Source: Bactericera cockerelli (Eukaryota; Arthropoda; Insecta; Hemiptera; Triozidae). From it: a stretch of DNA of 64,000 nucleotides. The first letter of the stretch is position 1; each line of letters begins with the position of its first letter. The notes under the pieces are model-generated. The model was not told the origin of the DNA. It saw only the letters and a program-made list of their open reading frames with translations, and searched no databases. The stretch lies in the NCBI GenBank assembly GCA_024516035.1, contig CM044958.1, forward strand, positions 10,357,670 to 10,421,669. The letters run 5' to 3'. This document shows, piece by piece, positions 949-64,000 of this stretch. A program made the position numbers and the translations under genes.

Positions 949-3900
949 CTTTTTTCATTGATAAAATTGCATATTCCAAGCCGAGAATAAGTGTGCTCGT
1001 CCCAAGTTGAAACTTTTCAGGGAATCCCTTCCTCAGATAAGTGTTGTCAATGGGCAGCTCTTGAAGATCTGTGTAAGATACATAGTGAACTTTTACAGTG
1101 GACCCAGGGGTGGGATTATCTCCAAAACCTTTTTCTTTGATCTAAAAATAAATAAAAATGAGTTTATTTAATTAGTAAATCCCTATTATTTGATTTGAAA
1201 ATAAATATTTTTTTTCTTTACTAAATCCTTTTTATTTAATCCCCCTTTGTGGTTACAAAAGGAAGAACACCCACTCAAAAGAATGAGTAACAAAGGTAAA
1301 AATAAATATAAAAATGCTTTCTATTTCTCTGGACTCCTATCTGCATGTGTTCCTCTTAAGTTATCTTTCTTTAGCCTTGCTGAGGGTCATCCCAAACTTG
1401 ATTTCTCTTAAAATTTACTTGTTAATTGGCAATAAAAACTGGCAGCCAGAGTATGATTTTTCTAAACTTGTTTGAATTGAATGGAGAAAACTACAATGTT
1501 TTCACAAATTCCATTGTGAATATAATCCCAAAATAATGACAATATGCTGAGTTGCAGTATCTCACTTTCAGCCTCTGTGGCATAACGGTTGTGACTACTG
1601 CTCGTAGTCCAGAGTTCATTAGATCCCAGATTCAATCCCAGGTCAGAGCAGATATTTCACACAGAAAATTCTGTTTCCTCCGTAGATGTGAGGCTGGAAT
1701 TTCCGGCCCTACCCAGGCTTAGTGAGGTTAATGTAGTAAGCTGGTATGATTCCCAGCAAATGGAGGGTAAAATCTTCATCCTAATCCAGGACGCTAAATC
1801 AAATAGAATTGTTGATTAGAAAGGGCATCAAGCCGTAAAAAATGTGCCAAAAACCAACCAACCTCAACCATGAGGTTAAAGAACACTGACCTTACTCAAG
1901 TGGGATTAGACCAAGTAAAAGAAGAAAAAGAATGATAAATAAATAGCATACCTTTTTCATTAGCTTTCCATCTTGAGTCTGTTGTGGACCATATGGAATA
2001 ATCACCATATTTTGTTTGTATTTCTCAAGTGAACTCCCAGACTCATCCACATCAAGCAATTCCAGCTTGGTATATTTCTCAACATTGTCAAACTCATAAT
2101 ATTGATCTGCATCATAAGTCTCTTTGTAATCCTCAGCTGCCTCAGTAAATTCCAATGATTGGCCATTTAAAAATTTACTGTAAAATAGAAATTCAAGGTT
2201 TTATAAAGTCCTTTCACTTTTGAATTTTTCATATTTTGTGTAGAATGAATGAAGAAATTAAGATGAAACAAAATAAACAAGAATGAAGATATTTATATTA
2301 CTGAAGAAAAAGAAAAAGAAAAAAAACAACAAATAGAAGATAAGAAAAATAAACAAAATAAAATACAATAATGATATTGTTAAATAGTTACAAATACATC
2401 TCCTAGAAGCTTGAGTGCAAGCCAGAAAATTCCACAGAGAAAGGTTTTTCACATACATGCAACTTTAGGAGATACAAAAGAGCATATTAATGCTCTAAAC
2501 ATTTTCTATCACCTAATCACTTATCTTATTCTGAGGATACAAAAAGCTGTTACCTTTAATTTTGTGGATTATCCATGCTTTAAAGAATGTTAGCTTTTTT
2601 AAAACAACTTTCAATAGAAATTTTACTCACGATTAACACGTTTGTTACCGAATGGCCATATGTGGATGTTTTTGTGTTTTTTCTTTGGGACCAAAACACA
2701 CATGTGGCCGTTATCAAAATTTTATCGAGGGACCGGACATCCATGTATGGCCTTTTTGAGGTAGGTTGTTAGTATTAGAACAGATATAGGATCGATTCTT
2801 GTACAAATACGATGCCAAATATGCAAAAAAAATCATTTTGGTACCCAGGATGCAACAGCGACTTTACCGTCTGGTCCCTACGTAAAACTTGAAAAAATTG
2901 GCTTGGTAACGAACGTGTTAAAAGAAGTTAAAAAGGAAAAGCACTTTTTTGAATCCTTTCAGCTCTATTTTTGTTTTGATAGATTGGTTTTTTGCCTTGT
3001 CCTAAGAATTCTCACTCATTACAAGCTAGTCATAAATGCTCACAAACTGCAACAGAATAGACCAGTATCTCAATCTGGAGGAAAACAGGGATTTTGGCAT
3101 GACTTTTGAACAAAGAAAAATGCGGGTCCATCACTAGGTCACAAAATTGCTTCTTCTTGAAGGATTTTTATGAAACTTTCACAGAATACTTAGAATCTCA
3201 TTAGAAAATGATTTCACACCAAGAAAACCACAAATTTACACTATAAATTACTTTATTTGATTAAAATTTGAACTATTATATTATGAAGTTTTATTGTGAA
3301 ATTTAAAACTACTTTTTTCATTTTTAAATACTTGTACATAAAAACAAAGAATGCATGTTAGACAACCGCAAATATATTTAGTGCAAACAAATCCCAGTTG
3401 CATGGAAATGCCACATAGCGTGACAAGCAACACCATCACTAAGTCGTAGAATATTTCTCGCTATCTATTTATGTTTCTGTTTTGATATATTTATGTTTAC
3501 ATTTGATACAGGTGAGGGACAAGGAGAGGAGACTTCTTGTCAGACAGACGGTTGCCAGACTAAATGTTGTGTTTCGTTAGCTGGCTAGGATAGCTTGGGT
3601 GAGGGGCTTAGGTTAGGTTAAATAGAGTGCAGGGTTAGACCGGGTCACTGCGCGACCCGGCCTAACCACCTGCGCTAATTTCAACCTAACCTAAGCCCCT
3701 CACCCAACCATCCTACCCAACAAACGATTGTCAGTCTAAATGTTGTGTTTTATTAGCCGGCTAGGATAGTCTAAATGTTGTGTTTCGTTAGCCAGCTAGG
3801 ATAACCGGCTAGTATTCTGTGAATGTTTCATGTGAATCCCTCAAGAAACAACTGTTCACTCCTGCAGTGATAGAGCCGAAAAATGCCCCACTGCAAGTTA

Positions 3901-33000: not shown

Positions 33001-33517
33001 TCTGTGCAAAAAGTCTGCTCCAACCGGGAATCGAACTCAGGATCTCTGGACTACGGGCAGTAGTCACAACCGTTACGCTACAGAGGCGTACGAGTATTTA
33101 TAGTAGTGTAGGTGTATAGGGCGGAATTAATAGACAACATCAATAACTTAAGTCGGTGGTAAGTGTCGGTTTTCCCTATCTTACATAGTACGCAATCCGT
33201 GCCTTAGCGCCACAGAGGTATTACAAAAACGTCTATTAATTCCGCCCTTAGTGTCGGTTTTCCCTATCTTACATAGTACGCAATCCGTGCCTTAGCGCCA
33301 CAGAGGTATTACAAAAACGTCTATTAATTCCGCCCTTAGTGTCGGTTTTCCCTATCTTACACAGTACGCAGTCCGTGCCTTAGCGCCACAGAGGTATTAC
33401 AAAAACGTCTATTAATTCCGCCCGTAATCTTTCATCCAATGTCAGCTGGTGTGTACTCTTTCGCTCTATTTTATCTCAACAGATTTGATGCAGCAGCGGG
33501 AGAGACGGGCTGTCTAG
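30080..33517 (+). CDS. Small secreted helical protein of unknown function, 112 aa
   Basis: Exons 30080-30119, 31637-31674, 32038-32263 and 33483-33517 join at GT-AG sites in frame (phases 1, 0, 1) to give 112 residues and a TAG stop. The first 40 nt and the start of exon 2 encode a signal peptide (MWFHAATLLAISVGFVLGSP). The mature part is cysteine-free, charged and predicted mostly helical by eye (ISEIAQNLFMAG, DVESLRQMFDQSLDSAKVTA) and ends in a basic RERRAV. No family recognised. The signal exon has the same coding length and phase as that of the gene at 16872-19983, suggesting a shared origin. AATAAA lies 81 nt past the stop and a TATA-Inr promoter precedes it. Intron 3 is filled with SINE and MITE copies. 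Confidence 0.72.
30165..30350 (+). mobile_element. AATTAATAGAC MITE with doubled left end
   Basis: 'gacgaaattaatagacaaa' occurs at 30171 and again at 30237, followed by the MITE core ('tatcttacacagtatgcaat', 'gccacagaggtatta'). The right TIR is degraded. In intron 1 of the small secreted-protein gene. Confidence 0.6.
31025..31161 (-). repeat. 5S-headed SINE, internal deletion
   Basis: Minus strand has the 5S-like head ('accagttctcgtcagatca', 'gaagttaagcaacgtccagc') and a shortened tail ('gcgaatggagggtaaaac'). Confidence 0.75.
31318..31430 (+). repeat. tRNA-derived SINE head
   Basis: 'gtggcagagtgagttagcgc' (A box) and 'ggtgacctgggttcgattcc' (B box) are the best-preserved copy of this head. 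The acceptor ends do not pair. Confidence 0.55.
32455..32560 (-). repeat. SINE shared-tail fragment
   Basis: 'ttcgctgtgaatcgtaccag' and 'ctacccacattaacctcacc', the tail common to the 5S- and tRNA-headed SINEs, without a head. Confidence 0.6.
32576..32653. repeat. Two adjacent short hairpins
   Basis: 'aatagggcaggg' / 'ccctgccctatt' (32576-32603) and 'ccatctacgga' / 'tccgtagatgg' (32627-32653), each with a ~5-nt loop. Confidence 0.7.
32861..33088 (-). repeat. tRNA-headed SINE, nearly complete
   Basis: Minus-strand head: 'gcctctgtagcgtaacggtt' (A box) and 'gagttcgattcccggttgg' (B box). The tail is 'gccggccctacccagactggg'-type followed by 'cagcgaatggagagttaaac'. Best evidence here that this head shares its tail with the 5S-headed SINE. 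Confidence 0.75.
33118..33425. mobile_element. AATTAATAGAC MITE with right half tandemly triplicated
   Basis: A complete MITE (33118-33241; TIR agggcggaattaatagac) is followed by two more ~90-bp copies of its right half ('gtgtcggttttccctatctt' to 'tctattaattccgccc') at 33242-33330 and 33331-33423. Confidence 0.85.
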
Positions 33518-39967: not shown

Positions 39968-42900
39968 GAGAGTTTTATCAAGAAGCTAGTGGAATTGAAT
40001 TGTCATTGTTACTACATTCAAAAATTGATTGATTCAAAACAAAAGTGAACATTGCTTAATGTCAGTTTTTTTTAGGGAGCCAGTAAGATGAAAACTTCCT
40101 GATGCTTGCATTCTGACCCAACCCAGACTGGGTGAGGTTAATCTTGGTAGCAGGTTTTTGAGTTTCCTGCGAACACCCCCTTGGTGTTATGACCATGCAG
40201 TTGAAGGTGATGTTAAACCTCAAAAAAATATCTACAATAGTCAATTATTGTGATTCCAAAATAATCTATTTGTAAATGATAAACAACAGATGATTTGATA
40301 ATCATCTTTCTTTTCATGACCAATAAAATAAATCTATGATTTCTCAATTTATTCTTTTTCAGATTTACACTTCATACATACCCCTGGAGCACGAGATCAA
40401 TCTGAGTATGCTATGGTGTTTGGTGGTGCAATGTTTTACACTGTATCCTTTATTTTATGAAGCCTTGGGTTGGGAAGGCCTAATTGTAGGTAATTTTTTT
40501 GCCAAAATTCTCTTGGATTTGTGGGTTTCATGTAAGGCTAGTTTCAACTGGTATTTTTTTTTTTGGTATTTATTTTTATTGTGAAATTATACAAAAATGC
40601 ATGTACACAATGTTACAGAGAAGTAGAACAAAAGACAGAAAATACAGATAAGATAACATAAAATTAAACAGAAAAAAAAAAAAAAAAAAAAAAATTAAAA
40701 AATATTAATAATAATAATATATATAATTGAGCTAATATTTATATGGGTTCTATGTGACATTTGACTAGATGGAGGTAAAGAAAGGAGAGATGACTAGATA
40801 GAATGGAGGGTTGACTGATTATGAAGCGAGAGATTGGGTCAAATCCTGTAGACTGTAGGGAGACACATTCATGATAATCTCCTTGAGTGAAGTTTTGAAT
40901 AAATCAATGTTATTGTTCTCCTTTAGTGCGTTTGGTAATATGTTGTATAATTTAATACCTGCACTCAGGTAAGATTTGTGGAAGAGTGTCTCCCCACTAG
41001 TAACAAGATTATCCCTTCCTCTTGTGTTGTAGCCATGGATACTGCTATGGCGATTAATGGATTCTTTGGTTTTATGTATAAGAACACATGTATCCAAGGC
41101 TAGTTGACCCCACATGGTAATAATATTTTTTTCTTTAAAAATTGGTCTGCACGACACATCTCTCTTTAGATCAAATACAGATCGAAGGGCCCTTTTTTGG
41201 AGCAGAAAGACATCCCTAGCATAGCATGAAAACCCCCAGTAAACAATTCCATAGGACATAATACTATGGAAATAACCAAAGTAGGAGAGGAGGGCAGGTT
41301 CAGATCCCACGTTTTTTTTTACAGATGATATAGCATAGATGGCCGAAGAAAGTTTTCCCTTGATGTATTCAACATGGGACTTCCATTTGAGTCTATCGTC
41401 AAGAAGCATGCCTAGGAATTTCACTTCTCTAGAGTGAGAGACAGTTAGGCCGCCACAGGTGATGGGGTGTAGACTATCGTTTGTGTGGGGATTAAAATAC
41501 ATGTATGTGGTTTTGTTGGAGTTTAGCTTCAGTTTGTTTGTTGAGAACCATGCCTGTATTTTTAGGAGTAGGGAATTAAGTTTTTCGTAAACCAGGGTTT
41601 TATTTTCTCCTGTTATAAGGACCGTGGTATCATCAGCAAACATTGTGAAGCTACCTTGATCAGATGAGGAAGTAAGGTCATTCACATACAGTATGAATAA
41701 AAGTGGCCCCAAAACCGACCCCTGTGGGACACCCGACATGACCAGCTGTGCTGCTGAGTACTCAAAAGTCCTGGTTCCATGTTTGATACAAGGTACCTTG
41801 GTCTTTTGATGCCTGTCCTGAAGGTAGGATCGAAACCACTCCAGAGCAGAACCATTTACGCCAAAAGTTGGGAGTTTGGACAGGAGGACTGAAGAGTCAC
41901 AACAGTCAAAAGCACGAGACAGGTCACAGAATAGACCTATTACATGCTTTTTAGAGGACAGAGCACTCTCGAGAGTAGACAGAAAACATGCCACGGCATC
42001 AGCAGTAGATTTGCCGGCCCTGAACCCAAATTGTTCCCTTATGAGTAGATTATTTTCTTCTAAGTAGGTTGACAGTCGGTAGTGGACAATTTTTTCTAGG
42101 ATTTTGGAAAAGTTACTCAGGAGAGATATTGGCCTATAGTTTGCTACATCTTTTTTAGAGCCCTTTTTATGTATTGGTGTAATGACTGAGTATTTGAAGC
42201 ATTGAGGAAACTGACCAGATGAGAAGGAATTATTAAAAATATGTGCGAGTGGTTCAGCAACGAGTGAGATTATATCTTTAATAAGAGTTAATGGTACAGA
42301 GTCTTCACCACTCGACATTTTTCTCTCCATGTTACCTACGATCTTCATAATTTCGACGGGGTTAGTTGGATAGAGTCTAAAATTTTGAATTAATGGAGTA
42401 GAAGTTGTAGGATGTGAGGTGAAATGTGGAGAGGTTAGGAAAGAAGTAGGGGCATATGTGGTAGAGTGAATAGTGAGAACTGAAGAGGTAGAGTACAGTG
42501 TAGGGACAGATGTGGTAGAGTGACTAGTGAGAACCGAAGAGGTAGTGTGAAGTGTAGGGACTGTTGTGGTAGAGTGACTAGTGAGAACTGAAGAGGTAGT
42601 GTAAGGTGTAGGGACAGATGTGGTAGAGTGACTAGTGAGAACTGAAGAGGTGGTATAAAGTGTAGGGACTGATGCTGTAGAGTGACTAGTGAGAACTGAA
42701 GAGGTAGTGTAAAGTGTAGGGACTGATGTGGTAGAGTGACTAGTGAGAACTGAAGAGGTAGTGTAAGGTGTAGGGACTGATGTGGTAGAGTGACTAGTGA
42801 GAACTGAAGAGGTAGTGTAAGGTGTAGGGACAGATGTGGTAGAGTGACTAGTGAGAACTGAAGAGGTAGTGTAAGGTGTAGGGACAGATGTGTTGGAGTG

Positions 42901-45900
42901 ACTAGTGAGGACTGAAGAGGTAGTGTAAAGTGTAGGGACTGATGTGGTAGAGTGACTAGTGAGAACTGAAGAGGTAGTGTAAAGTGTAGGGACTGATGTG
43001 GTAGAGTGATTAGTGAGAACTGAAGAGGTAGTGTAAAGTGTAGGGACTGATGCTGTAGAGTGACTAGTGTGGACTGAAGAGGTAGTGTAAAGTGTAGGGA
43101 CATATGTGGTAGAGTGACTAGTGAGAACTGAAGAGGTAGTGTAAAGTGTAGGGACATATGTGGTAGAGTGACTAGTGAGAACTGAAGAGGTAGTGTAAAG
43201 TGTAGGGACATATGTGGTAGAGTGACTAGTGAGAACTGAAGAGGTGGTATAAAGTGTAGGGACTGATGCTGTAGAGTGACTAGTGAGGACTGAAGAGGTA
43301 GTGTAAAGTGTAGGGACTGATGTGGTAGAGTGACTAGTGAGAACTGAAGAGGTAGTGTAAAGTGTAGGGACTGATGTGGTAGAGTGATTAGTGAGAACTG
43401 AAGAGGTAGTGTAAAGTGTAGGGACTGATGCTGTAGAGTGACTAGTGTGGACTAAAGAGGTAGTGTAAAGTGTAGGGACTGATGTGGTAGAGTGACTAGT
43501 GAGAACTGAAGAGGTAGTGGAAAGTGTAGGGACAGATGTGTTAGAGTGACTAGTGAGGACTGAAGAGGTAGTGTTAAATGTAGGGACTGATGTGGTTGAG
43601 TGACTAGTGAGAACTGAGGGGTTAGTGTATAGTGTAGGGACTGATGTGTTAGAGTGACTAGTGAGAACTGAGGGGTTAGTGTATAGTGTAGGGTCTGATG
43701 TGTTAGAGTGACTAGTGAGAACTGAGGGGTTATTGTAAAATGCAGGGACTGATGTGGTAGAGTGACTAGTGAGAACTGAGGGGTTAGTGTACAGTGTAGG
43801 GACTGATGTGTTAGAGTGACTAGTGAGAACTGAGGGGTTAGTGTACAATGTAGGGACTGATGTGTTCGAGTGACTAGTGAGAACTGAGGGGTTAGTGTAC
43901 AGTGTAGGGACTGATGTGGCAGAGTGGCTGTTGATGGATGCAGTAACAGAGACAGGCGTGAGTGATGTAACAGGCTGTGCCCGACACTGCAGAGGTATTT
44001 CAATGAAATATTTATTAAACATCTCTGCCACGTCCCGGGGGTTCCTCACCTCTCCCCCGTCTCCCAATAGCCTGAGATCTACATGTTGCTTGTTGCTGGT
44101 CTTACTGTAAGTACTTACTATACTCCATATAGTTTTAATTTTCTTGTGTTTGGGAGCTGTATTTATGAGATCTGTTGTATGCCTTGTCTTGGCTGCTCTC
44201 ACCACTTTGGCCAACATATTTGAGTACTGTCGATAGTGAGCGTGTACCGCTGGATCTCGACTGTACTTACATAGATGGTGTAGTGAACGTTTTTTTAAGC
44301 AAGAGGTCTTTATACCCCGAGTCAGCCAGCTTTTATTATGCGTTTGATTAGAGCTTCTTATGGTTTTATAGGGGAAAATCAAATGAAACAAGTTGAAAAA
44401 CGTGTTGTGGAATGCTTGCATTTTTTCATTTAGATAGGTGAGTGTGTAAACTTCAGAAAAGTCTGCTGAACAAAGAGCATTCCTAAAGAGTTCTACTTGT
44501 GAGTGTTTAAAGGTACGTGTAATAATCTTTTTGGCTTCGCTCATACTACCAACCTGAAATGAGATTACTTGGCCATATTTGTGGTCTCCGAGACCACTAA
44601 ATATGTTTGTTTCAGTGTTTAGGAGATTATTGATAGGAAAGTTTATGATGATATTATCTACACACGAGATAGATCCATTCGCAACACGGGTAGGAGAATG
44701 CACTGTAAGCTTCATATTAAACATTTCCAGGAGAGATAGAAATTCAGACCTTTCTTTGGAGTCTTTAAGAGTATCAATGTTGTAGTCTCCACATAGGATT
44801 AAAAATTTGTATTTATTCAATTTTTGTAAGATTAGCTCAAGATTGTGGAAGAAAACAGGAAAACTGGAATTCAGATTATTAGACCTGTAGATACACAGGA
44901 TTGCAATATCTAAAGAGCAAGAGGTTACAGCGCAAAACTCAAAAGAGAACTCTAACGGTTCCACTCCAGTGTCAAGGGGGATGAAGTCCAAGTTATCCTT
45001 GACGAAAATGGAAGTTCCCCCGCCCAAGCGATTTGGTCTATAGTAGCTCGAGACATTAGTGTACCCTGGGAGATTTGTACATTGGTAGTTTTGAGGAGAT
45101 AACCAGGATTCTGTCACACAGAAGATCGCAGGTGTATGGCGATAGTAATCATATAATATGTGGAAGAAGAGCTCAACGGATGGTATTTTATTTCTGATGC
45201 TTTGTAAATTGTGGTGTAAGATTGTAAGCGTTTGCAGCTTTGAATTATGACTGTTTAAATAATCATTGATATGTGTATAGGATGTGGGAAAATATGGGAT
45301 GGCTAGTGCAGAAAGCTGAGATCTGGGTGTGTTGACTGGTGTGTGGTGTGTGTGTGTTACTGTCACTTCTGGCGAGCTGGACGAGTAATTAATTCTTTGT
45401 GAGGGTTGGATATAAGAGGAAGGAGTACAAGTTATGAGATTAGTTTTTATGTTTGGGTTAAATTTATGAGCGGGATAGTAAGGCTGCGCGAAAGGTGAGA
45501 GAGACGAATTATTATAGAAAAAACTGGGTACCTGCTTCGTCGTTACCTAAACTGAAAGTTTCATCTAATTCTAGATTATTTTTGCCAATGGTTATGATAG
45601 TATTTCCAGGTTTATTGTTAAAAGACTTCAGATTTACATTTTGACTAGGCTGAGTAGTGCTGGGACTTAGAATTAAGAGGGAATCATTAATTAATTCATT
45701 CATAGAGGTATCTTGATAGTTTACAGGGCAGGTAACATTTGATAGAGAGGAGGGAATATCTAACTGTGTAAAATGACTAGAGTTTGTAGCTATGAATTGA
45801 CCAGTTGAACTTACAGGAATATTGTAGAATGATTTAAAGAGTTTAAAATTATTGCTAGAGATCGATAAAATAATTCTTACTAGGCTGTTGCATATTGTAG

Positions 45901-48900
45901 ATTTACCTATGACATTGAGGTGTAAGCCATGCCTAGTATACATTCTACGTGACAATATAAAATTACAATTAAGGTAGTGAAACTTGTACTGGCGACTAAT
46001 ACGAAACAAATTAAGATTAGTAGAAAATATATTAGAATTAAAGCGACTAGTGTGAAACATAAAGGGCACACTTGATATAATCACTGATGTTCGAGAGAAA
46101 ACATTTTGAATTCCTTGGAAAATTTGGTCCAAGAGCTGAGGATGAAGATAAGGTATATCATTGCAACCTGCAAGAATGAAAACAAAATCAGCTTTAGTGA
46201 AAGATTTGGTCTGTGAGTCGAGGTTGTGAACAACTCGAGAAAAAGATGCACCTGGATAGGTAAGACATGTAACCTCATACTCAGGGAGTAAGTTTGAAAG
46301 AATTGAGCCAAAGTCACGTGACATGCTGTCGCCCACTACTAGCACGCGTTGCTTCTCAGGGGAACAATCATGTTGAGTGAGGGAGGGATTTGACTCAGAT
46401 GAGAAGATATTGTGAGGAACTGCAGGTCCAACCGCTCCGCCGGGACCGCCAGTGCCAGGAGCCGCAGGTTCAACCTCAGCAACCGCTCCGCCGGGACCGC
46501 CAGTGCCAGGAGCCGCAGGTCCAACCTCAGCAACCGCTCCGCCGGGACCGCCAGTGCCAGGAGCCGCAGGTCCAACCTCAGCAACCGCTCCGCCGGGACC
46601 GCCAGTGCCAGGAGCCGCAGGTCCAACCTCAGCAACCGCTCCGCCGGGACCGCCAGTGCCAGGAGCCGCAGGTCCAACCGCAGCAACCGCTCCGCCGGGA
46701 CCGCCAGTGTCAGGGGCCGTAGATCCAACCGCAGAAACCGCTCCGCCGGGACAGCCTGGGATTACAGGTTTCGACTTGAGTAGATTGGTGTACATAGCTC
46801 TTATATGTTCAAGTTCTGTTTGTAGATTTTCCAGCTGATTGTGAAGACTGGCATTTTCCTTTTTTAATGATATTAAATCATTCGAGGATTTCAAGCTCTC
46901 TTTTTTGTATGTAGCATGTGTGGAGTTGCTAGCAGAAGGGTGAGGTGTATACACATAAGGTCTATTTCCAACTTTCTCAATTGGTCGTGACTGAGGAGGA
47001 CGGGGTGAGCTTGATGTTGGGGTATGTGTAGAAGTCTTTGCAGTTCTGTTAGTGGCCGCAGTAGCCTTAGGGGTTCTAGTCCTCGCGTCCAATTTAGGGT
47101 TTGATTTGACCTTAAGAGCAGGCTTTGAATTGTCCTGAGGTGTTGCAAGCTGATCTCTTGTAAGGGATGTTCTTGGTACTGAGTTCCGATTCCCCAATGT
47201 CCCGCCCCCAGCACGCCGCGCCTGAGCTGCTCTTGTCAACATTGTTCAATGAGGTGCTTGTATGCTAGGTTTGGTAATTCGGTATAGCTATGTGCTATGG
47301 ATGAAGTAGATAAACAGTTATGTAATGTATTGATAGAGATAAGTAAAGCGAATGATATAGGTGATAGGTATCGAGCACACAAAGAGTCTAGGGTCCAAAG
47401 TCCGATTTTATAAAATCAGTTAGAGTAGGTAATGATAGAACCAATACATGGATAGGTATATTATATAGTATGACTACACAATTTACATAGCGGACGGTAC
47501 AGATAAAAACTTTTTTGGTTTAATTTAAATTACACAAAAATGCGAAAAGATAAAAGTATTTCGATAACACAGAATAATAACACTAATTATTTTACAGATA
47601 CTGACTAAGGTTTGTTTTTTTTTGTGGAAGATTAACAAAGAAAAACATAAAGATATAAAAATAATATTACGAAAATCACGATAGTTAGTTCACTCACTGT
47701 AACTCACTCGTGTTGAACTTTTCAACTCTCATACAATTTTTGATATCTTCAACAGCTTTGCCAAAAACTCAAAATCAAACTAAAGTTTGTATATTGGTGG
47801 TTTTTCATGGATTTTTGGCTAAACGGTTGAAGATATCAAAAAAATCAAAAAGTTAATCACTCCATTAACCACAAACAAAACCCTCAAATACAAGAGAATT
47901 TTATCAAAAAAATAATTTGTGAAGCATATGGAAATTTCCACCCCCAATGTATAGGTTGAACAATGTAGGTATTTGTAAAAATCCAAAAATAGTACTTCTT
48001 TTCACCTACCTTTAAGGGGGCCCGCCTAAAGCTATTGAAAAATTAATAATATATTAAATCGTACTTGTAAATGCTCCTTAACTTTAATCTTTTAAAAATC
48101 AGAAAAATCCTGTTCTCCCTCACCTGGGAATATTTCAAGGGCGAAGAATCAGTGGGGGAGCGCTCCACAGTAATAGTGACTGGTGCTGCCTATCTTGTGC
48201 TTGCTATGATGATGCTCATAGTAGATGAGGCTAAACTGGAAACAGGGGTCCACTCAGCATATGCAAGTTTCAACCGAAGTGCTGCTACCTTTCTATCCAA
48301 CCAGGGACTGAATTCTGAGTAAGAAAATGATAGATTGGATGCTTTTTGGAGGTTCTTTGGTCACATTAATTCTACAGTAAGATCGATGTAGGTATCTTCA
48401 CATTTAGAAATTTCAATATCTTATAATATTTAGAAAATCTTAGGTTATAAAATAAATAATTTATTTTCAGCGGGGGTGTTACTCTCCATTTTAAGGAAAC
48501 TCACAAACCTGCTACCCACATTAACCTCACCCAGCCTGGGTTGCGCCGGAATTCCAACATCACAAAGTCTTCATCTCGCTGGACGTTGCTTAACTTCGGT
48601 GATCCTACGAGAACGGGTGCATTCAACGCGCCATCGACTCTGGCACTGAATGTTTGGTTCTTTGGATGTATAGAGCTCAGAGAACCAAAGATTCCATTCC
48701 ACCAAGGCATAATACATGGTTCGAATCCCACCCAGTGCATGAATTTTTCCTTATTAATTTGAGTTTGTGACCACATAATAATAAGACTCGTAAGGGTTAG
48801 GTGGTAGAAATTCTTTTAGCATTAACCTCGCCTGGTGGTTACTTTCCGGTAAAGAGTATTATTATTAATACAGAATTTCTTCTTTTTAAAATTTATACCA

Positions 48901-51900
48901 GCCAACATATTTCCTCTTCTACAGGGGTCCAGCATCCAAGATCATCATAAACTTCTGCATTGCCTTATGGTGCGCCCTCATAGGAGCTCTCTTCACCTTC
49001 CCAGGCCTTCGCATGGCCAGGATGCACTGGGACTCTCTCAAGTAAGTCTCTTCATTCATGTGAAATCAAGAGTTAATTTTAAATTTAGTCCTGTTGCAAA
49101 TAATGAGAAAATGGCTAGGTGGAATAGAATAGAATAACCTTGTTTATACTATCTGGTAAGGACTAATAAATCATCCTAGCAGTCTTGGTACCTTCATGTA
49201 AATTATTGCACCTCAGTCACTTGATTGTCAAGCAGACTGAAATTTGAGGTCGGAGATTTGAGCCTGAGAATTTTTTCTGAATTGTTTCGACAGGTCTTGA
49301 TTTTTAAAAAATTCCTTCTTTCAGGTACTGTGGTGATAGACTCATCCTCAAGCTGATTCTAAACATTAGCTTCATAACTCCGCTTGTTCTCATCATCCTC
49401 TGGATCAAACCCTTAGCTCGCTACTACCTCACGAGTCGTGTGTTCCAGGGTATGGACGCTCCTTTGTAAGTAATTTGTGCCTGAAAAATAATCTTCTAGT
49501 TTTTTTTTAATTTAAAAGATGAATGTTTTATTGCCCACCCCTCTGATAGGGGAGAAGTGTCATAATACTTCTTATTTAGGTGCTGGGTCAACAAGAGCGC
49601 ATAGCGCATAGGAACTCTCACAAACAACTGTAACCAAATTTATATACAATTATATTGTTAGCTCGGGGGATCGAAACAAGGACTTTCTGCATGGCTTGCA
49701 AGTGTTTGTTTTCTGAGATGAATCGCGTTTTTCTCAATTTTTTTTTTTTTTTCTTTTCTTAACATCTTAAGTGAAAACGTTAAATGTTAAATAAATTAAA
49801 AAAAAAAATATCCAAAGAATCGTGAATTTAAAATTCAACCAATGAATGATTTTTTTGAAGCAATTTTATAAATCCACCACGTTATGTTATTTGTCCCGGA
49901 TTAAACGTCAAACTAATATAAGGAATATTGTTATTTTATGGCACCAAATAAAGATACCAGGAAATCACATGGGCCCCAGAGAGTCCCCACCTCCAGTAAG
50001 AAAAATCAGATATAGTCGAACCTGGATATTAGAAGCCCTTCAAAGTTTAGGAGAAGTACCTTTGTATAAATGTTTCTTTATAAAGAAAATAAATAAATAA
50101 ACTATTATTATTATTATTATCCTTAAGAGAAACACCTGGATATAAGAGTACAATTTCTAAGTCCTATTTACTTCTCTGTAAGGGAAAATAACCTCTTTAT
50201 AAGAAAAACAACAATTTCTGATCCCTCAAGTTATCTTATATCCAGGTTCGACTTATAATTCATTTTATTATTATTTTGAAATAAAACTCTTCTCTGTGGC
50301 TAACTTCTCTCTCTTGTCCCAGACTGACACAGGCCGGGTTCGATAGTCTGAAATAAAACTCTTCTCTGTGGCTAACTTCTCTCTCTTGTCCCAGACTGAC
50401 ACAGGCCGGGTTCGATAGTCTGAAATAAAACTCTTCTCTGTAGCTAACTTCTCTCTCTTGTCCCAGACTGACAGAGGCCGGGTTCGACAGTCTCCGCCTG
50501 ATCCTCATCGTAGTTCTCGTCTTGCAACGTGTGGCCCTCATGCCAGTCTACCTGCAGGCCTACTTAAACATGGCTTACGCTAGGATAGAGGACCAGAGGA
50601 AAGAGGCGGGCCGAATCACAAACGTGGAGCTGCAGAAGAAAGTAAGCGGGTCAGATCGCCTCTGATAACACAAAGAGGCATAAACCACAAATTTTTGAAA
50701 TCGGTTTTATTGCTTGGATTGAGTCTACTTGTGCTATATTTTGTTCTCACAAATAGACGTAATCCAATTATAATCCAAAGAAAAAATACAACAAAAATTG
50801 AAATCAGGCATATCCCTCATTTTCTCTTTTTCAGACAGTTCAAATAGGCGTAAATCAATAGTCACAGTTAAATAATCAAATTTGGCAACAGAAAAAGTTC
50901 GTATGGTCATTCACGGGTACAGGGAAGTGATAATGTTCCTACCGTGAACAGAAAATTTATGCACAAGAAAACTCATTTTGGCTCTCCTGTAAAATTTCAA
51001 AAATGTTGTTTACGCCTCTTTGTGTTATCAGAGGCGAGATTATTCTGATAGTTACTATTTTTATATTGATCAAATTCTATAGTGCTGTACTTATTGCATT
51101 CGTTATGACCATTTCATACATGAATTTACACCGAAAGGTTTGTCTTGGGGCGAAGTTAATGGACAAAGACAAAAGAGATCCTTTTCGGACTTACGTATTA
51201 GTTTCACCATATAAAACTATACGCAAAAACCGACCTCAGTAGCTTGATCGATAAGGCGGCGGACTTGTAACCTGGAGGTCGGTGGTTCAAGTCCCGGTTT
51301 CAGCGAAGATTTAGTAAAGCGAGTTAGAGTAGTCGTGACATCACGAAAGTGATTAACACAAATATGATAACTTTTTTTTTTAACTATACGCAAAATGAAG
51401 ACTCAAGTCGACAGAGATATAACAAAAACCTCTATTCATGATTCCGCCCTAGATGTTCTTGTTTTTAAACCCTAGGTCAAACATTATAACAAATGATATT
51501 ATTATTACAACAAAGAAACTGAGTACAAAAGTACTGAGAATTCTCCTATAAATCGGATAAATATTTTTTTTGTGTTGACATTTATTCAAAAAAAAAAAAA
51601 AAAAAAAAAATGAAACAGACAACGCACCGAGGCCCAAGTACATAGTCACTAATAAACAGATTATACTCACATTTATATACATAATCAAATGGCTAATGAC
51701 CGTGCTTCATCAAGCTGTTAGTGACTATGGTATTTTTTTTTATTATTTTTTTTTATTAAAAACATAACATTGTTTCAAAAATTCTTAGAACTATAAATTG
51801 AAACAACAATACCAATGTTCACATTAAAATAAAATAATTAAGAACTTAAAACTATAGCGAACTAAAAACTAATTGTCTTACATTTGCTTTAAAAGCTTCC

Positions 51901-56407: not shown

Positions 56408-56615
56408 AGGGCGGAATTAATAGACGTTTTTGTAATACCTCTGTGGCGCTAAGTCACGGGTTGCGTACTGTGTAAGTTATTGATGTTGTCTATTAATTCC
56501 GCCCTTTAGTTATTGATGTTGTCTATTAATTCCGCCCTTTAGTTATTGATGTTGTCTATTAATTCCGCCCTTAAGTTATTGATGCTGTCTCTTAATTCCA
56601 CCCTGAATGTTATAG
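56408..56615. mobile_element. AATTAATAGAC MITE with end repeated four times
   Basis: Starts 'agggcggaattaatagacgt' and contains 'ggcgctaagtcacgggttgc'. Its right end ('agttattgatgttgtctatt' + 'aattccgccctt') occurs four times in tandem, period ~34 bp. It lies 45 bp past the PNPT1 stop. Confidence 0.85.
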
Positions 56616-56658: not shown

Positions 56659-59600
56659 TCAGCTCTTATCAGCCGCGGGTTCGAAGTTCTTGACGGCCCC
56701 CGTGCCTTGCAGTACCTTGCGGGACAGTCGCATGAGCCCTGACACAGGATCCCGGCCGAAGTATTTCACCTGGATATCCTGGCCCTCCTCGAAGCCCAGG
56801 ACACTCGGGTGACCGATCTGGAACACAGGGAGTGAAAGTGATTTTCAGTATCTTTAAAAAGGACTGTGTTCCACCCGAAGAGATAATGTCCATTGGTTGA
56901 TAGGGTACCGAAAATAAATAATAAATCATAATGGTCTCTATAAGTAAATTAATTAAGTTTCTCAAAGAAATTTCAGAGGTAAATAGTGTGATTGTGTCCC
57001 ATGATTTATTCATTTATCGATACTGCTTTTATTCATGTTCCATGTGTTGGAAATATAAGAAATTTGAGGAAGAACTTGGTATATAGATCCACTATACCCG
57101 GGTGATCCACGGATACCCGTTTGTTGGTTTCTTTGTTCTTACGTCCAAATTCCAAGTTCTACCTCAAAATTCTTATACTTCCACACTAACTTGACCAGAA
57201 GACAACAAGAACACTAATAAGCACACACGCAACTCATAGTTATCATATTTGTGTTGATCACAACCTCGCCTCGCCTTACTAAATTTCGTTGCATTATTAA
57301 GACGAGCTAGGAGCAGTTGTGTTCATAATTATCTATATTGTTAAAAGAGACATAAAACTATTATCTTTAATGCCACCCAAAGAGGCAATGCGGCGGCCAT
57401 ACTTGGCACATTGCCTGTCAATCAAGGGGTCGAAGAGGCTGTGATTGAAACCGAGGGTACTGTGATTAAAAAAAACACTGCCAATTATGAACACAATAGT
57501 TCCTCGTGATTGCTTCACATTGTAAACACGTGCCAATTTTGAGATTTTATAGAAAATTACCTGTATCTCCAAAACGGCTCAACCGATTTTCTTCAAATTT
57601 GTTTTATATGGTAGAATATCGTTTTTTCTACATTCTAAATTCCACAAAAAATTCTGTATCGGCGAGTCGTGGTCCTTATTTTTTTAATCTTTGTCCAAAA
57701 TTTCGAATTTTCTTAAATATCAGAGTCAAATTATAATTAATTTAAAAATAAATATAAATAACCTATGTAAAACAATAATATGCATATTCTTACAAAATTT
57801 CATCGAAATCGGGTGTACCGTTCCGTACCGATATAAGCGTTTAAGTAAAAAGTTAGAGGTCAGGCACATGGTCTCTTTCACCCAGAACGGCTGGTATGAA
57901 TTCGATGAATTTAAAATGGGACTATCGACAGAATGTCTCCTAGATGTGAGCAAAATTTCATCAAAATCGGTCGAGTAGTTTCCGAGATTTGCGCGTTACA
58001 AGGAATCGTTTTAACAGACCGACGGACCGACAGACGGACACAAAACCACAATTTTGTAAAAAAAAAAAAAAATATTTTTTTTTACAAAAACGAACACAAT
58101 ACTTCCGATTTCTAATAATAGAAATTTCTCGGAAGTAATATATATAACTTTAATCTACGATTAAAAATAAAATAAAAAATATGTATATCTAGTGACCCGG
58201 CTAGAGACCACTCAAAAAAAATCGGCGTAGCACACGCCGCAACCGCTACCTTGGATTTTTGCCTTACTTGGAGTTCGAATCATTGAACCAGGTTACCAGC
58301 ACGCGGTCAGTAGTTAGTATCTTTTTGTTTTCAAAGAAACTATACTGAAAATCATACAACAAGGTAGGAAAGTTCATATTTACCAGACGATACCTCAGAA
58401 TAGACATGCAAGTGTGGCTACCCACCTTTGCACACCCATTTTGCCAGGTTATGTTGGACTTACTGGTAATTTCCTTACCAGCACCTACTAACTAAAACCT
58501 CTCCTAGACGTATGACCACTCATTATAGGAAAATCGCCCTGGAACCGCGTGAGCATTTCATCAGGATTAGTAGTTAGTATCTGTGGTACCTGAAGAAGTA
58601 GCGACCTACTTTCCGCTGATCCAGCTGTGAGTTGTGCAGCAAGGCGGGTTGCATACCCGGGTACAGAGTCACCATCACACCCATGTCCCTCACCTCCACG
58701 ACTTTTGCCCCACTCTGTATAACTTTCAAGCGTAGGTATTTGCAGTAAAAAAAAAAAAAAGTTGTAGTAGCTAGTACAAAAAAAGCAACTTACTTTCCGC
58801 TGATCCAGCTGGGAGTTGTGCAGCAAGGCGGGCGTCATACCCGGGTACAGGGTCACCATCACACCCATCTCCCTCACCTCCACGATGCGGGCCGAATAGA
58901 TAGCGCCGAACTCCAGGGTGGGTTGGGTGGAAGAGCACAGCAGTGCCTCTATCAGCTCCCGGGCCTCGTCCACCGCCGCCTGATTGGGGGCGAACATCTG
59001 CAGACTGTCGTCCTCGCTGGAGGTGATCTGAAGTAGTCACAAAAAAATTGTCAATTGACAACATAAATCAAATTTTATTATACATTTTGAAACGGAACAG
59101 TGCGAAACGGAACGGAACAAGTCTTAATAAGATGCACTGTTTCTCTCAAAATGTAAACAAACCGAGGAACCGAGTTCCTTTTGGAGAAACGGATTCGTTG
59201 TCATTCTGCGTCTTTTTGATAATGGAATATTAAATGAGAACGCCAAATTTTGAATCTGCATTTTAAATTTATTTTTGAAATGAGATGAGCTTAGAACCAA
59301 TCAGAGAAGACCTACACAAATACAGCTGATTACAGAAATTTCACTTCTGTTGATCACTGAAATGACCTTGTTATATTTTCTTTATCTTCAACCATTCAAA
59401 TGGCCCGATGTTCCGTTCCGTTTCGCTCTGTTCCGTTGCAAAATGTATAATAAAATGTGACTATACATCGTACATATTGATAGAAATCTTATTAGGTAGG
59501 TACATAGATGGTAAGCGAATATAACATATCATTTTTCTTACTATCTCAGTATTCAATTACCTTTTATATTTGTTACCTAACCTACCTACTTAACATTCAT

Positions 59601-62600
59601 TTATTTTTTTAATGTATTATCTACTATTGTATGTACTTTTGATTACTTTGTATATATTTTTGATGTCAAATACATTGCCTTTTATTACAAACAAGCAGGC
59701 TGTCGCCCGCTTTGCGGGCCGAGGCATGGCCGTGAAAGCAAAAAATCCTTTTTCGTAAATGGCAGGTGTTGTAGTGGGAATTTTGAAAAATCTCGTCTTA
59801 TTGCACATCTAGACTATAAGACAAATCTACCTACCAAATTTCAGCTTCCTAGGACTTACGGTTTGGGCTGTAGAGCGATGATCAGTCAGTGGTCAGTGAC
59901 TTTGACATTTATATATTAAGACTAGCGGGCTGTCGCCCGCTTTGCGGGCCGAGGCATGGCCGTGAAAGCAAAAAATCCTTTTTCGCCAATGGCAGGTGTT
60001 GTAGTGGGAGTTTCGAAAAATCCCGTCTTATTGCACATCTAGACTATAAAACAAAGCTACCTACCAAATTTCAGCTTCCTAGGACTTACGGTTTGGGCTG
60101 TAGAGCGATGATCAGTCAGTGGTCAGTGGTCAGTGAGTGTCTTTGACATTTATATATTAAGATTACAAACCAGTATCAATGTCCGATAAGGCAGAATTTG
60201 ATATAACTCGGACCTCGTTTATCCGAGGCTCAACATATTATAGTCACAAGATGCGCTTCGAGCTACTCTATCTTTTGCCCCCACTTCCAGCCCACCTACC
60301 TCAATTTTAACCCTCCTAGGGAGGTTTATGTAAATTGCTGAGCCTCGTTTGTCATTTCTCCACAGTCGTGAATATTTTATTCTTATATTCTGTCACTCAG
60401 ATCAGGTATTTATGTCTGAATGCAAAAAAGATACTGATGATTACTCTGTACTCGCTGCGAATACAAACAACAACAATATTCATATTGTTGTTGTTTGTAG
60501 GCAGCTTGGCTACAGCTGGAGGGTTGAGTGATGGTCTCCAGCCAACTTATTTCAAAGTTGGCTCGTCCTGAACCACATAATTTCTATGTGCGATCTATTC
60601 ATATTCACCTCACTCGGCCTGGCTTGTTCAAAGTTCATTCACCCAACTTACCTGGACTCCAGTCTGCAAGAGAATCTTCTTCATATTCATCCCCCCGTGT
60701 CCTATGAGCTTGCCCCTCTGATGAGCGGGCACATCTAGGGTCTGTACCACCGGCCAGTTGGACTTGGCCCCTTGCACTCTGGGGAAGGCATGAAAAAGAT
60801 ATTTCAACACATTTATTTAATTTAAGGAATTACATATGGATGTACAATTGTACATACCCATTTTTTTTTTTTTTTTTTTTTAAACTAACGTCTACAGTCT
60901 ACACTGTTACCCGATTCACACAAGGTATTGTGTGTCAATAAGTAACAGCAATAAGTGACTTGAGATAACAATCATTACTGATTTGCCTAATTAAATAAGG
61001 CCATGGCTTTGATGATGGGGGATTTATGCATATATGTTTCTTTTTTGTTAGGATAAAGCACCACATAACATAACAACTCCGTTATTAAATACTCAAGGTA
61101 GAAACGTATAGGAGAATTTTAGTTATACTATGCTACACACAAAATTTGTGAAATGTTAATGGACTTTTAACCAGTTCAGCTAAAGCTGGGAGGAGTTATG
61201 GCTAACAGCCAATTTAAGTGGAACGTTGGCTCGTACTGAACGATATGTGCGATCAACTATCGTGAGAACTAGGACTTTTTCTTTATAAGCTATTGAATCC
61301 TTGGGAAATTGCAAGCTAGCGTCTCGTTCATAATAACCTCAGCTCACCTGGGGGAAGCTAGCGTCTCGTTCATAATAACCTCAGCTCACCTAGGGGAAGC
61401 TAGCGTCTCGTTCATAATAACCTCAGCTCACCTAGGGGAAGCTAGCGTCTCGTTCATAATAACCTCAGCTCACCTAGGGGAAGCCAGCACCTCGTTCATA
61501 ATAACCTCAGCTCACCTAGGAGAAGCCAGCGTCTCGTTCATAATAACCTCAGCTCACTCACCTAGGGGAAGCCAGCGTCTCGTTCATAATAACCTCAGCT
61601 CACCTAGGGGAAGCCAGCGTCTCGTTCATAATAACCTCAGCTCACCTAGGGGAAGCTAGCGTCTCGTTCATAATAACCTCAGCTCACCTAGGAGAAGCTA
61701 GCGTCTCGTTCATAATAACCTCAGCTCACCTAGGAGAAGCTAGCGTCTCGTTCATAATAACCTCAGCTCACCTAGGAGAAGCTAGCGTCTCGTTCATAAT
61801 AACCTCAGCTCACCCAGGGGAAGCTAGCTGCAGCGTCTCGTTCATAATAACCTCAGCTCACCTAGAAAAAGCCAGCGTCTCGTTCATAATAACCTCAGCT
61901 CACCTAGGAGAAGCTAGCGTCTCGTTCATAATAACCTCAGCTCACCTAGGGGAAGCCAGCGTCTCGTTCATAATAACCTCAGCTCACCTAGGGGAAGCTA
62001 GCGTCTCGTTCATAATAACCTCAGCTCACCTGGGGGAAGCTAGCGTCTCGTTCATAATAACCTCAGCTCACCTGGGGGAAGCTAGTGTCTCGTTCATAAT
62101 AACCTCAGCTCACCTGGGGGAAGCTAGCGTCTCGTTCATAATAACCTCAGCTCACCTAGGGGAAGCTAGCTGCAGCGTCTCGTTCATAATAACCTCAGCT
62201 CACCTAGGGGAAGCCAGCGTCTCGTTCATAATAACCTCAGCTCACCTGGGGGAAGCCAGCGTCTCGTTCATAATAACCTCAGCTCACCTAGGGGAAGCCA
62301 GCGTCTCGTTCATAATAAGTCCCTACCTAGATCTGGGTTCAAGGAGGCGGTAAAAAGCCTTGATTTGGTTGATTTGGTTCTCCTTGATTTGGTTTCTTAT
62401 TTTTTTCAAGATATTCTCGACCAACTGTGACGGACATTGTTTTCTATCCTTCCTCCTCTACCCCCTCCTGTTCCTTCCTCTTTCTCTCGGCCTACGGGAA
62501 ACAAAATAGAGCTTCTTTGTTTAAACTATTTTGTTTAAGTTTAAGCTTAAACTTTTTTGCTATTGTTTTAAGTATTCCTTTCTTTTAATAATTTCTTTCT

Positions 62601-62896
62601 AGTTTATATAATTTCTATATTTGTATAATCTCTTAATGTGAAACACATACTTATTGTATTGAACCATTTTTCACAATAAATAAATTGAATTGAATTGACC
62701 TCAGCTCACCTGGGGGAAGCCAGCGTCTCATTCATAATGCCGATGATGTCACTCTTGGCGTCACAGGCCGCCATGACCGCCTCCATGACTATCTTGAGCG
62801 GCAGGCCGGGGATCTTGACGTCCGCCTGAATGGCGGTGATCCCTTTCTTGGTTCCCGCCACCTTGAAGTCCATGTCGCCCATGTAGTCCTCAATCC
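56659..62896 (-). CDS. PNPT1: PNPT1, polynucleotide phosphorylase, last four exons
   Basis: Exons in transcript order: 62896-62710, 60778-60652, 59027-58794, 56817-56659. All are GT-AG and in frame (phases 2, 0, 0); TGA at 56659. The 234 residues cover the end of the second RNase PH domain ([28 protein letters not shown]), a KH domain ([16 protein letters not shown] with GHGG loop), and an S1 domain ([47 protein letters not shown]). PNPase degrades RNA 3' to 5' using phosphate and in animals acts in the mitochondrion. The N-terminal exons lie right of the window. Odd points: the donor of the first exon listed is amplified ~24 times in the following intron, and half the S1 exon is duplicated at 58714-58610. 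Exons are GC-rich compared with the introns. Confidence 0.95.
57300..58140 (-). mobile_element. Non-autonomous element with hairpin end
   Basis: The minus strand starts with a hairpin ('acttccgagaaatttct...agaaatcggaagt') then TATTGTGTTCG, parallel to family A's palindrome plus TATTGTATTCG. It contains (GTCC/GTCT) words near 58015-58040. The block at 57368-57410 encodes [14 protein letters not shown] on the plus strand, related to 15395-15440. Confidence 0.45.
58610..58714 (-). other. In-frame duplicate of the 3' half of the PNPT1 S1 exon
   Basis: 35 codons, no stop, preceded by 'ttatacag' and followed by 'gtaggt'. It encodes [20 protein letters not shown] and then [11 protein letters not shown], differing from the true exon mostly by silent or conservative changes. 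Phase 0 on both sides, so inclusion would keep frame. Could be an alternative exon or a young duplicate. Confidence 0.85.
59692..60162 (-). mobile_element. Two Helitrons exactly abutting head to tail
   Basis: Copy B 60162-59922: 5' TCTTAATATATAAATGTC, 3' hairpin and CTAG. Copy A begins at the very next base (59921, TCTTAATATATAAATG) and ends near 59692, where CTAG has decayed. Same family as 25675-25903. In the PNPT1 KH-S1 intron. Confidence 0.85.
60467..60622 (-). repeat. SINE-like repeat with (ACA)n tail
   Basis: Reverse of 440-728: 'gttgttgtttgtaggcagct', 'gtctccagccaacttattt', 'atttctatgtgcgatc'. Confidence 0.55.
61185..61311 (-). repeat. SINE-like repeat, 5' part, bordering the donor array
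   Basis: Reverse of the middle of 440-728 ('gtgcgatcaactatcgtgag', 'ccttgggaaattgcaagcta'). It ends exactly where the 42-bp array starts. Confidence 0.5.
61312..62319 (-). repeat. 42-bp minisatellite of a PNPT1 splice donor, ~24 copies
   Basis: Unit on the plus strand: 'aagctagcgtctcgttcata' + 'ataacctcagctcaccta' + 'gggg'. On the coding strand it is 29 nt of exon end, then GTGAGCTGAGGTT. It matches the true junction at 62699-62738 with few changes. Two units carry a 4-bp 'tgca'-type insertion and one a 4-bp duplication. A plus-strand open frame over it (61309-61659) is an artefact of 42 being divisible by three. Confidence 0.95.
62320..62698 (+). mobile_element. Retroelement 3' end inserted between the array and the true donor
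   Basis: Non-coding sequence ending '(aataaataaattgaattgaattga)'-type short repeats, as in LINE tails. Removing it joins 'ataataa' to 'cctcagctcacc', restoring an uninterrupted array up to the real exon. Confidence 0.6.
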
Positions 62897-62949
62897 CTGG
62901 GGGAAGGTAAATAAATAAATAGAATAGAATAGAAATTACCTTGTTTATA

Positions 62950-63165
62950 CTGCCGAGGTGAGACTGAAAAGCCCCTTTATTCCAGCAGTCTAAACAAGGT
63001 CTCTTGTTTATTTTCAAATTTAAATAGACATTTTGTACGTACATTTAATATTTAATAAATAAATAATTTCTAGGTCAAATTTACCTCTCTGTAAGAGAAA
63101 ATAGCCTCTATAAGAGAATACTTTCCAGGTCAAATTAATAATAATGATAATTTTTTATTGTAATA
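62950..63165. other. PNPT1 intron, nothing firm
   Basis: AT-rich, no further PNPT1 exon recognised. Confidence 0.4.
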
Positions 63166-63169
63166 ATAA

Positions 63170-63413
63170 CTAGCCGTTTGCCCGTGCTTTGCAACGGGAC
63201 AAAATTTCAAATTTACTAAGGCATGGCCGTACTGCTGGACATCAATGCCTTTTTGAACTTTTTATAATTTTTCTGGACAAAGCAATAATGGTTTTGGGGG
63301 GGTCAATTCTGAGACATTTTTCGCTATCTCTTACCGTTTTGGCTAAACAACTCCGGACAAACAAACAAACAAACATAGGTAGGTAGTCCTTTTTTCTGTT
63401 TTATATATAGAGA
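63170..63413 (-). mobile_element. Non-autonomous Helitron, different family
   Basis: Minus strand: A|TCTCTATATATAAAACAG at the 5' end; a 3' hairpin cccgttgcaaagcacggg, then 'caaacgg' and CTAG|T. Length 244 bp. No target duplication. Confidence 0.7.
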
Positions 63414-63419
63414 TAATAA

Positions 63420-64000
63420 CTATTATTTGACAAGAATAATATGTGTTGACAAAGGGCGTAATTATTGCCTGAGGCAATATCTGCCATCAAACCCATATTG
63501 TATTTTGCCTTGCAGCGTTCACAATTCGAGTAATTTCTTAAATATAAGTATTTAATTTTTATAATAAAAAAAAAAAAAAAAAATATGAATAAGAGATAAG
63601 AATCCAGATAGACTTTTAAAGAAATTTAAGGATGTTCAATCCGCAACCAGTCACCCTCAGACCAATCCCCAAAGGAGTAGGGCATCGTTACTAAGAGCCG
63701 CTCTTTTAGTGATGAATTAAATTGTGTGTGATTTTAACACTTTAGATCATCTGAAGGATCGTTAAATAGTTTCATACACTCTTTCAGTAAATATCTGTCC
63801 ATGACTTTGTTAGAACTTTGTATGAGTTTGTTCCTATTTTTCTCTTTTTTTTTCTTCTTAAAAAAAAAAAAAAAAAAAATGAGTGGTTCACAGCCGTTTT
63901 TATTTCGCAGCCATGAAACAGGAGCTACTGTAGACGCTTGTGGTCTGTGTTGTAGCCTGCCCATCCCGTGGTATGCCTCCCCTCTGATGAGCGAGAAGTG
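63420..64000. other. Repeat relics at window end
   Basis: 63455-63500 is a diverged LINE 3' end ('gggcgtaattattgcctgag'). 63895-63960 matches 27375-27460. No gene recognised. Confidence 0.4.

Follow-up and report, generated by a model that had tools for sequence, protein, structure and literature searches.

The 3′ part of PNPT1 lies on the minus strand at the right end of the window, by which we mean the whole stretch of 64,000 nucleotides that was analysed (C4:10357670-10421669 of a 565-Mb assembly). Four exons, all on the minus strand, were placed in it. Exon A (62710..62896), which encodes GIEDYMGD..., was found by tblastn and by alignment to PNPT1 homologues, with its boundaries taken from the sequence. 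It is followed by exon B (60653..60778), which carries the KH domain, by exon C (58794..59028) and by exon D (56660..56817), which contains the stop codon; exons C and D were located by homology and sequence. Upstream exons (X2, X1, E7 and more; these labels are our own) are outside the window. The conceptual product of exons A to D, a 235-aa C-terminal part of the protein that includes the KH domain, matched the solved mitochondrial PNPT1 with an E value of 3e-81 over query residues 1-222. In a protein search, fragments from Homalodisca and Graphocephala (69% identity) ranked first, and a beetle and a termite protein came next; full-length proteins fell outside the length filter. The intron between exons A and B, as defined by the exon boundaries, is about 1.93 kb long (60779..62709, minus strand). 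It begins with the true splice donor of exon A, CAG|GTGAGC (62708..62709, minus strand), which was placed by the exon frame and the GT.

An array made from the exon A junction

This intron holds a tandem array (61313..62318, minus strand) of 23 complete units and a truncated last one. TRF gave a period of 42, 23.6 copies and 93% matches over 61313-62318. The complete units are 42 bp (20 units), 48 bp (two) or 46 bp (one) long, and the final unit stops after 22 nt. With some changes, the units follow the pattern ATTATGAACGAGACGCT(G/A)GCTTCCCC(C/T)AG|GTGAGCTGAGGTT, and GGTGAG is present in 23 of the 23 complete units, whose donors run from 62287 to 61347. Each unit consists of the end of exon A (29 nt) and the start of the intron (13 nt), so that the last 29 nt of exon A can be counted as unit 0. 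Because every tandem unit joins a piece of the neighbouring exon to a piece of its intron, the array is a junction-spanning minisatellite. The original prediction had described about 24 donor-like units, derived from the end of a PNPT1 exon and the head of its intron and lying in that same intron; TRF, the unit-by-unit reading and the sequence of the junction bear this out. Among the 42-bp units, 11 of the 29 columns in the exon part are variable, against 2 of the 13 in the intron part; these are raw counts, and selection to keep the donors was set aside as a reading. A 251-nt piece of the array (about six units) folded no better than its shuffles (z +1), and no Rfam family reached the gathering threshold in a search of 60600-64000.

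The true donor had been expected at the exon end of the array. It does border the array in origin; however, its present place is 62709, some 390 bp away from the array edge (62318) and beyond a dispersed repeat of 379 bp with an (AATTG)n end (62319..62697, plus strand) that is inserted between unit 0 and unit 1. Removal of this element from the sequence rejoins the flanks into one unit with one extra A. Among the matches listed, 19 other places in the genome match the element from base 1 to 379 with 77-93% identity; the search listed 52 matches, including the element itself and short pieces, and 40 of 204 candidates were scored. Beside one copy, at C7:33711853-33712605, positions 5-41 or 10-41 of the element were matched 11 times in a row.

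Other repeated sequence was observed in the window. The part of the PNPT1 intron past the array (60778-61311) has a relative at 549-705 on the opposite strand (72% over 158 bp). Separate tandem arrays at 33162-33423 and 56475-56604 have the unit part GTCTATTAATTCCGCCCTT in common. On the minus strand, 42456-43926 and 46429-46756 are in-frame tandem arrays (54-bp x27 and 51-bp x6) within stop-to-stop frames of 1575 aa and 577 aa; these long frames look like those of a LINE-type element.

Two versions of the locus and the choice of donor

PNPT1 and its array are also present on contig C616 (117,087 bp). C616 and C4 are collinear from end to end and mostly about 84-97% identical in blocks of at least 350 bp (83-94% in the blocks near the array), with unmatched gaps such as that at 50-71 kb of C616. 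When a few flanking bases are included and indels are counted, the exons differ at 3/208 (X1), 5/163 (X2), 5/193 (A), 6/152 (B), 18/257 (C) and 8/172 (D) positions. Exons B (111266-111416) and D (113830-114000) of C616 each show two mutually compensating one-base indels relative to C4, which are assembly errors or real. In the C616 array we counted 39 complete units. GGTGAG is intact in 34 of them; the other five read AGATGAG and have lost the GT. An insert also separates the true donor from the array in C616. Its sequence is other than that of the C4 insert, only the CAATTCAATT-tail end being clearly alike, and a search for its relatives gave none in the sequence covered.

Judged from the sequences, C616 is probably the other haplotype, retained in the assembly; a segmental duplication could also account for it. 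The copy number, which had been expected to vary, is thus 23 units in one version of the locus and 39 in the other, and the collinearity suggests that the two versions are alleles. Because both carry the array, at these different lengths, the array seems to predate the divergence of the two versions and to have changed in length since. The original prediction had also allowed for a collapsed or artefactual assembly. We reject this, because another contig with diverged flanks has its own, longer array; these flanks and the copy number also rule out a chance origin of the array. Exon A shows 3 differences between the two versions within the 29 positions of its repeated tail, and 2 within the other 156 (P 0.03). 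This difference is only suggestive of gene conversion between exon and array, which may have taken place at exon A.

Exon A ends in phase 2, and the intron therefore starts AG|G TGA. Since the TGA sits at the true junction itself, any later donor would retain it and the transcript would stop at once. The in-frame TGA that had been predicted for later donors was found both in the sequence and by script. In the calculation of U1 pairing, the true donor gave -11.1 kcal/mol. The 23 array donors of C4 gave -9.5 (16 units), -11.1 (5), -9.3 (one) and -11.4 kcal/mol (one, which also has a weak shifted site of -4.6), and the GT-bearing units of C616 gave -9.5 (33) and -8.3 kcal/mol (one). The calculated pairing of the true donor is therefore at least as strong as that of 22 of the 23 C4 units and stronger than that of all 34 GT-bearing C616 units, so that pairing strength slightly favours the true donor. 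Its position, at the exon border and at a distance set by the inserted element, may add to strength in the choice. All PNPT1 exons seen in C4 have an open coding sequence; presumably, therefore, enough transcripts are spliced from the exon-proximal donor.

Duplicated splice junctions elsewhere in PNPT1 and in the genome

The edges of twelve PNPT1 exons were compared by blast with their own locus, and exact counts were made. Across C4 and C616, five junctions besides the exon A donor are duplicated. The exon A donor itself has 24 copies in C4 and 40 in C616, including the true one, and five of the 40 are without GT. The X1 acceptor has 10 copies in C4 and 1 in C616, the X1 donor has 1 in C4 and in C616 2 exact copies with one diverged third, and the X2 donor has 25 and 1. 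For the E7 donor the numbers are 2 and 4; the blast test did not pick up the extra copy in C4, which is diverged. The exon C donor has 2 copies in each version. Its extra copy, which comprises the 3′ part of the exon and the donor region, lies in the next intron (58600..58701, minus strand; blastn 92% over 102 bp) and is also present in C616. No junction copies were found for exons E1 to E4, E6, B and D; several of these ends (E2, E4 and E6) come from protein matches and may miss the true splice site, in which case a duplication could have escaped detection. The exon for human residues ~253-297 was not found. If they were used, the nine upstream copies of the X1 acceptor in C4 would have various consequences: the five closest to the exon would insert 15-residue repeats in frame, three others would run into a stop seven codons on, and the most distant would lead into a diverged exon-like copy with a stop after 227 codons. 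A second gene in the window has a duplicated acceptor. In TMEM161, identified by an exon translation that matches PF10268, the splice acceptor region forms a 72-bp unit of about 46 nt of intron and 26 nt of exon, which TRF and the sequence show three times (50277..50493, plus strand). As read from the sequence, use of an upstream copy would give an in-frame TAA.

Kinase exons were used as a wider sample. From 134 Pkinase matches in the genome, 36 places were taken, which represent 30 separate exons and six second copies; the choice was not random and mostly favoured short matches free of stops, and one of the places (L065) was partly masked. Five of the 30 exons had junction-spanning duplications, which affected 6 of at most 58 edges. 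Counted with the true site, the donor of L033 has 17 sites (16 of them beyond a spacer of about 270 bp), that of L036 has 12 (a run of 11, then one at a distance) and that of L041 has 2; the acceptor of L044 has 2, and L046 has 7 acceptor and 6 donor sites. L033 (4 intron bases overlap) and L044 (where the rule picked another AG) were added by eye; under the strict automatic edge rule, applied to the first 20 exons, 4 of 40 edges qualified. L050, in which the duplication ends just short of the donor, was left out of the count. For two of these loci, copy numbers differ between the exon and its second copy: L036 has 12 sites and its second copy, L059, has 8, of which two precede and six follow an inserted repeat; L046 has 7 acceptor and 6 donor copies, and its second copy, L060, has 3 and 2. 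In L049 (C12:22774721-22776614), a diverged tandem array runs from near the kinase stop codon into the 3′ flank (~1156-1894, minus strand). This array spans the stop codon and not a splice site, and it was left out of the count as well; coding ends besides splice sites may also be duplicated.

The significance of the kinase count depends on the null. Since an array that reaches an exon edge must have the exon as its terminal copy, points in terminal copies were used as the null. When 1200 random points were placed in 261 kb, 62 of them fell within a local duplication of any kind and 39 within a terminal copy; the latter corresponds to 1.6% per direction. Against this rate the P value is 4e-4 for 6 of 58 edges and 0.004 for the strict 4 of 40. 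At 1752 points of the kinase loci away from the exon, the terminal-copy rate was 2.5% (P 0.003). The kinase edge rate is thus 4-6 times the terminal-copy background. In contrast, comparison with any local duplication (62/1200) gave a P value of 0.08, or 0.03 if L050 is counted, and the first control, in which 64 of 800 points lay in any local duplication, gave 0.32 for 6 of 58 and 0.40 for the strict 4 of 40. Therefore, the excess at kinase junctions is weak or absent against all points in local duplications. In PNPT1 without the exon A junction, 3 of 22 edges are duplicated by blast in each version (P 0.005 each at the 1.6% rate), PNPT1 being the gene of discovery. The terminal-copy rate was 2.1% at GC-rich and 1.9% at GC-poor control points (700 each), and we reject GC-richness as the cause of the junction excess because these rates are similar. 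A detection bias is possible, since a constrained exonic copy would stay recognisable longer.

The paired donor motif CAGGTGAGT N20-45 CAGGTGAGT was found 2870 times genome-wide (1441 + 1429), against 65 (22 + 43) for the reversed pattern; the 2870 are a raw count of pairs anywhere in the genome, at exons or not, swollen by large arrays and not normalised to the single motif. The first pairs listed, about a hundred, come from some six arrays on C1 (for example, C1:5100919-5102453), and the number of arrays must therefore be far below 2870. This wider pattern is the more interesting result; it rests on one large unnormalised count and on small samples that depend on the null. Among the papers listed in searches of the open-licence literature, none reports genome-wide splice-junction arrays, which does not mean that no such report exists.

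Origin of the arrays and comparison with known systems

The anatomy of the array, its junction origin, the different copy numbers of the two versions, the recurrence at other junctions and the excess of paired motifs have a good explanation in common. We consider it quite probable that the array is a minisatellite that arose from a junction-spanning duplication, that its exon-proximal copy is the one spliced and its extra units are mostly passive decoys, and that it is one of many at splice junctions. A tandem duplication across the PNPT1 exon-intron junction would have started the minisatellite, and unequal exchange or slippage may have lengthened it. As long as the spliceosome uses the intact exon-proximal copy, the protein would be unharmed. 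The extra units would then be decoy donors, mostly unused and removed with the intron. We infer a mutational cause for the junction duplications.

A wider reading is possible, which we hold only tentatively. In this lineage, transcribed splice junctions may be the preferred sites of a mutational process that makes tandem duplications. About a tenth of all splice sites would then have extra copies; the spliceosome would reliably pick the exon-bordering copy among up to about 40, and the arrays may feed changes into coding ends by conversion. Our confidence is lower here because the kinase edges show no excess over the 64/800 background (P 0.32).

Insertion of elements might instead have been the trigger, if long target duplications carried the junction and later expanded in tandem. 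The dispersed element exactly at the border of units 0 and 1 in C4, the other insert at the same border in C616, and the repeat-like spacers, which separate the junction copies of L041 and follow the second unit of L059, would fit such a trigger. However, the arrays of TMEM161, L036, L046 and, in C4, PNPT1 X1 and X2 run head to tail from the exon with no insert at the border, the apparent target duplications at PNPT1 exon A are only 1-5 bp, and neither the C616 insert nor the L033 spacer has relatives in the sequence searched. We therefore regard this as improbable.

The original prediction had raised the possibility of regulation, in which the units titrate U1 snRNP or act as alternative donors that yield NMD-targeted transcripts and so tune the PNPT1 level. 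As judged from the sequences, such a role would agree with the donor being kept in most units (23/23 in C4 and 34/39 in C616), with the TGA retained by every later donor and with the array in both versions of the locus. A device specific to PNPT1 finds no support, however, since similar duplications are present at unrelated junctions, in PNPT1 itself, TMEM161 and kinases, five of the 39 C616 units are without GT, most units pair with U1 more weakly than the true donor, and the array length is not constant (23 against 39). Regulation by decoys is thus an unlikely account. A strong pyrimidine tract belongs to the definition of a recursive splice site. That the units act as acceptor and donor at once (CTTCCCCCAG|GTGAGC) and the intron is removed stepwise is very improbable because, despite a short pyrimidine stretch with AG and GT in register in intact units, just 10 of 17 upstream positions are pyrimidines, units with CTAGC have an extra upstream AG, and the intron is of 1.93 kb, whereas in flies most introns longer than 40 kb are reported to have recursive sites (PMC6110457).

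If the pattern of passive arrays at many junctions holds, the genome is full of natural tests of splice-site competition, which could be addressed by RNA-seq alone. It has long been asked how the spliceosome distinguishes an authentic splice site from a neighbour of equal quality, and the usual approach is minigenes that have few sites. Such a genome would also point to a bias of mutation or survival at exon-intron borders, with relevance to intron growth and intron gain.

Fly recursive splice sites resemble the units in that AG and GT are juxtaposed (PMC8605326); they belong to very long introns (PMC6110457), whereas the PNPT1 intron is of 1.9 kb and its units have a weak pyrimidine tract. 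As in competing 5′ splice sites, one exon has several donors to choose from. SRSF1 and hnRNP A1 reportedly promote intron-proximal and intron-distal donors in a human system (PMC5585400), and in view of these preferences long decoy arrays strongly challenge the rules of donor choice. Two donors compete in that system; here there are up to 40, and the exon-proximal (intron-distal) one is presumably used. The Rogers model, in which introns are gained by tandem duplication of AGGT segments, with a fission-yeast example of several 24-bp copies (PMC4974935), likewise involves a tandemly duplicated segment with AG|GT. In that model an exonic segment becomes a new intron, whereas in PNPT1 an existing junction was copied into its own intron. 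In genes of human segmental duplications, variable internal tandem repeats with units of about 30 bp are described at exon-intron boundaries, with an average of 4 repeats and 27 intron modifications, and are linked to novel introns (PMC2812944). The arrays reported here are likewise variable minisatellites at exon-intron boundaries with units of a similar size. Unlike the human repeats, they reach 39 copies, involve donors and acceptors, and occur at several junctions of one gene and in several genes, and the exon structure is apparently unchanged. Thus, by its defining feature the PNPT1 array belongs to the exon-intron boundary repeats, and it differs from them in scale, in the involvement of acceptors and in the recurrence within one genome.
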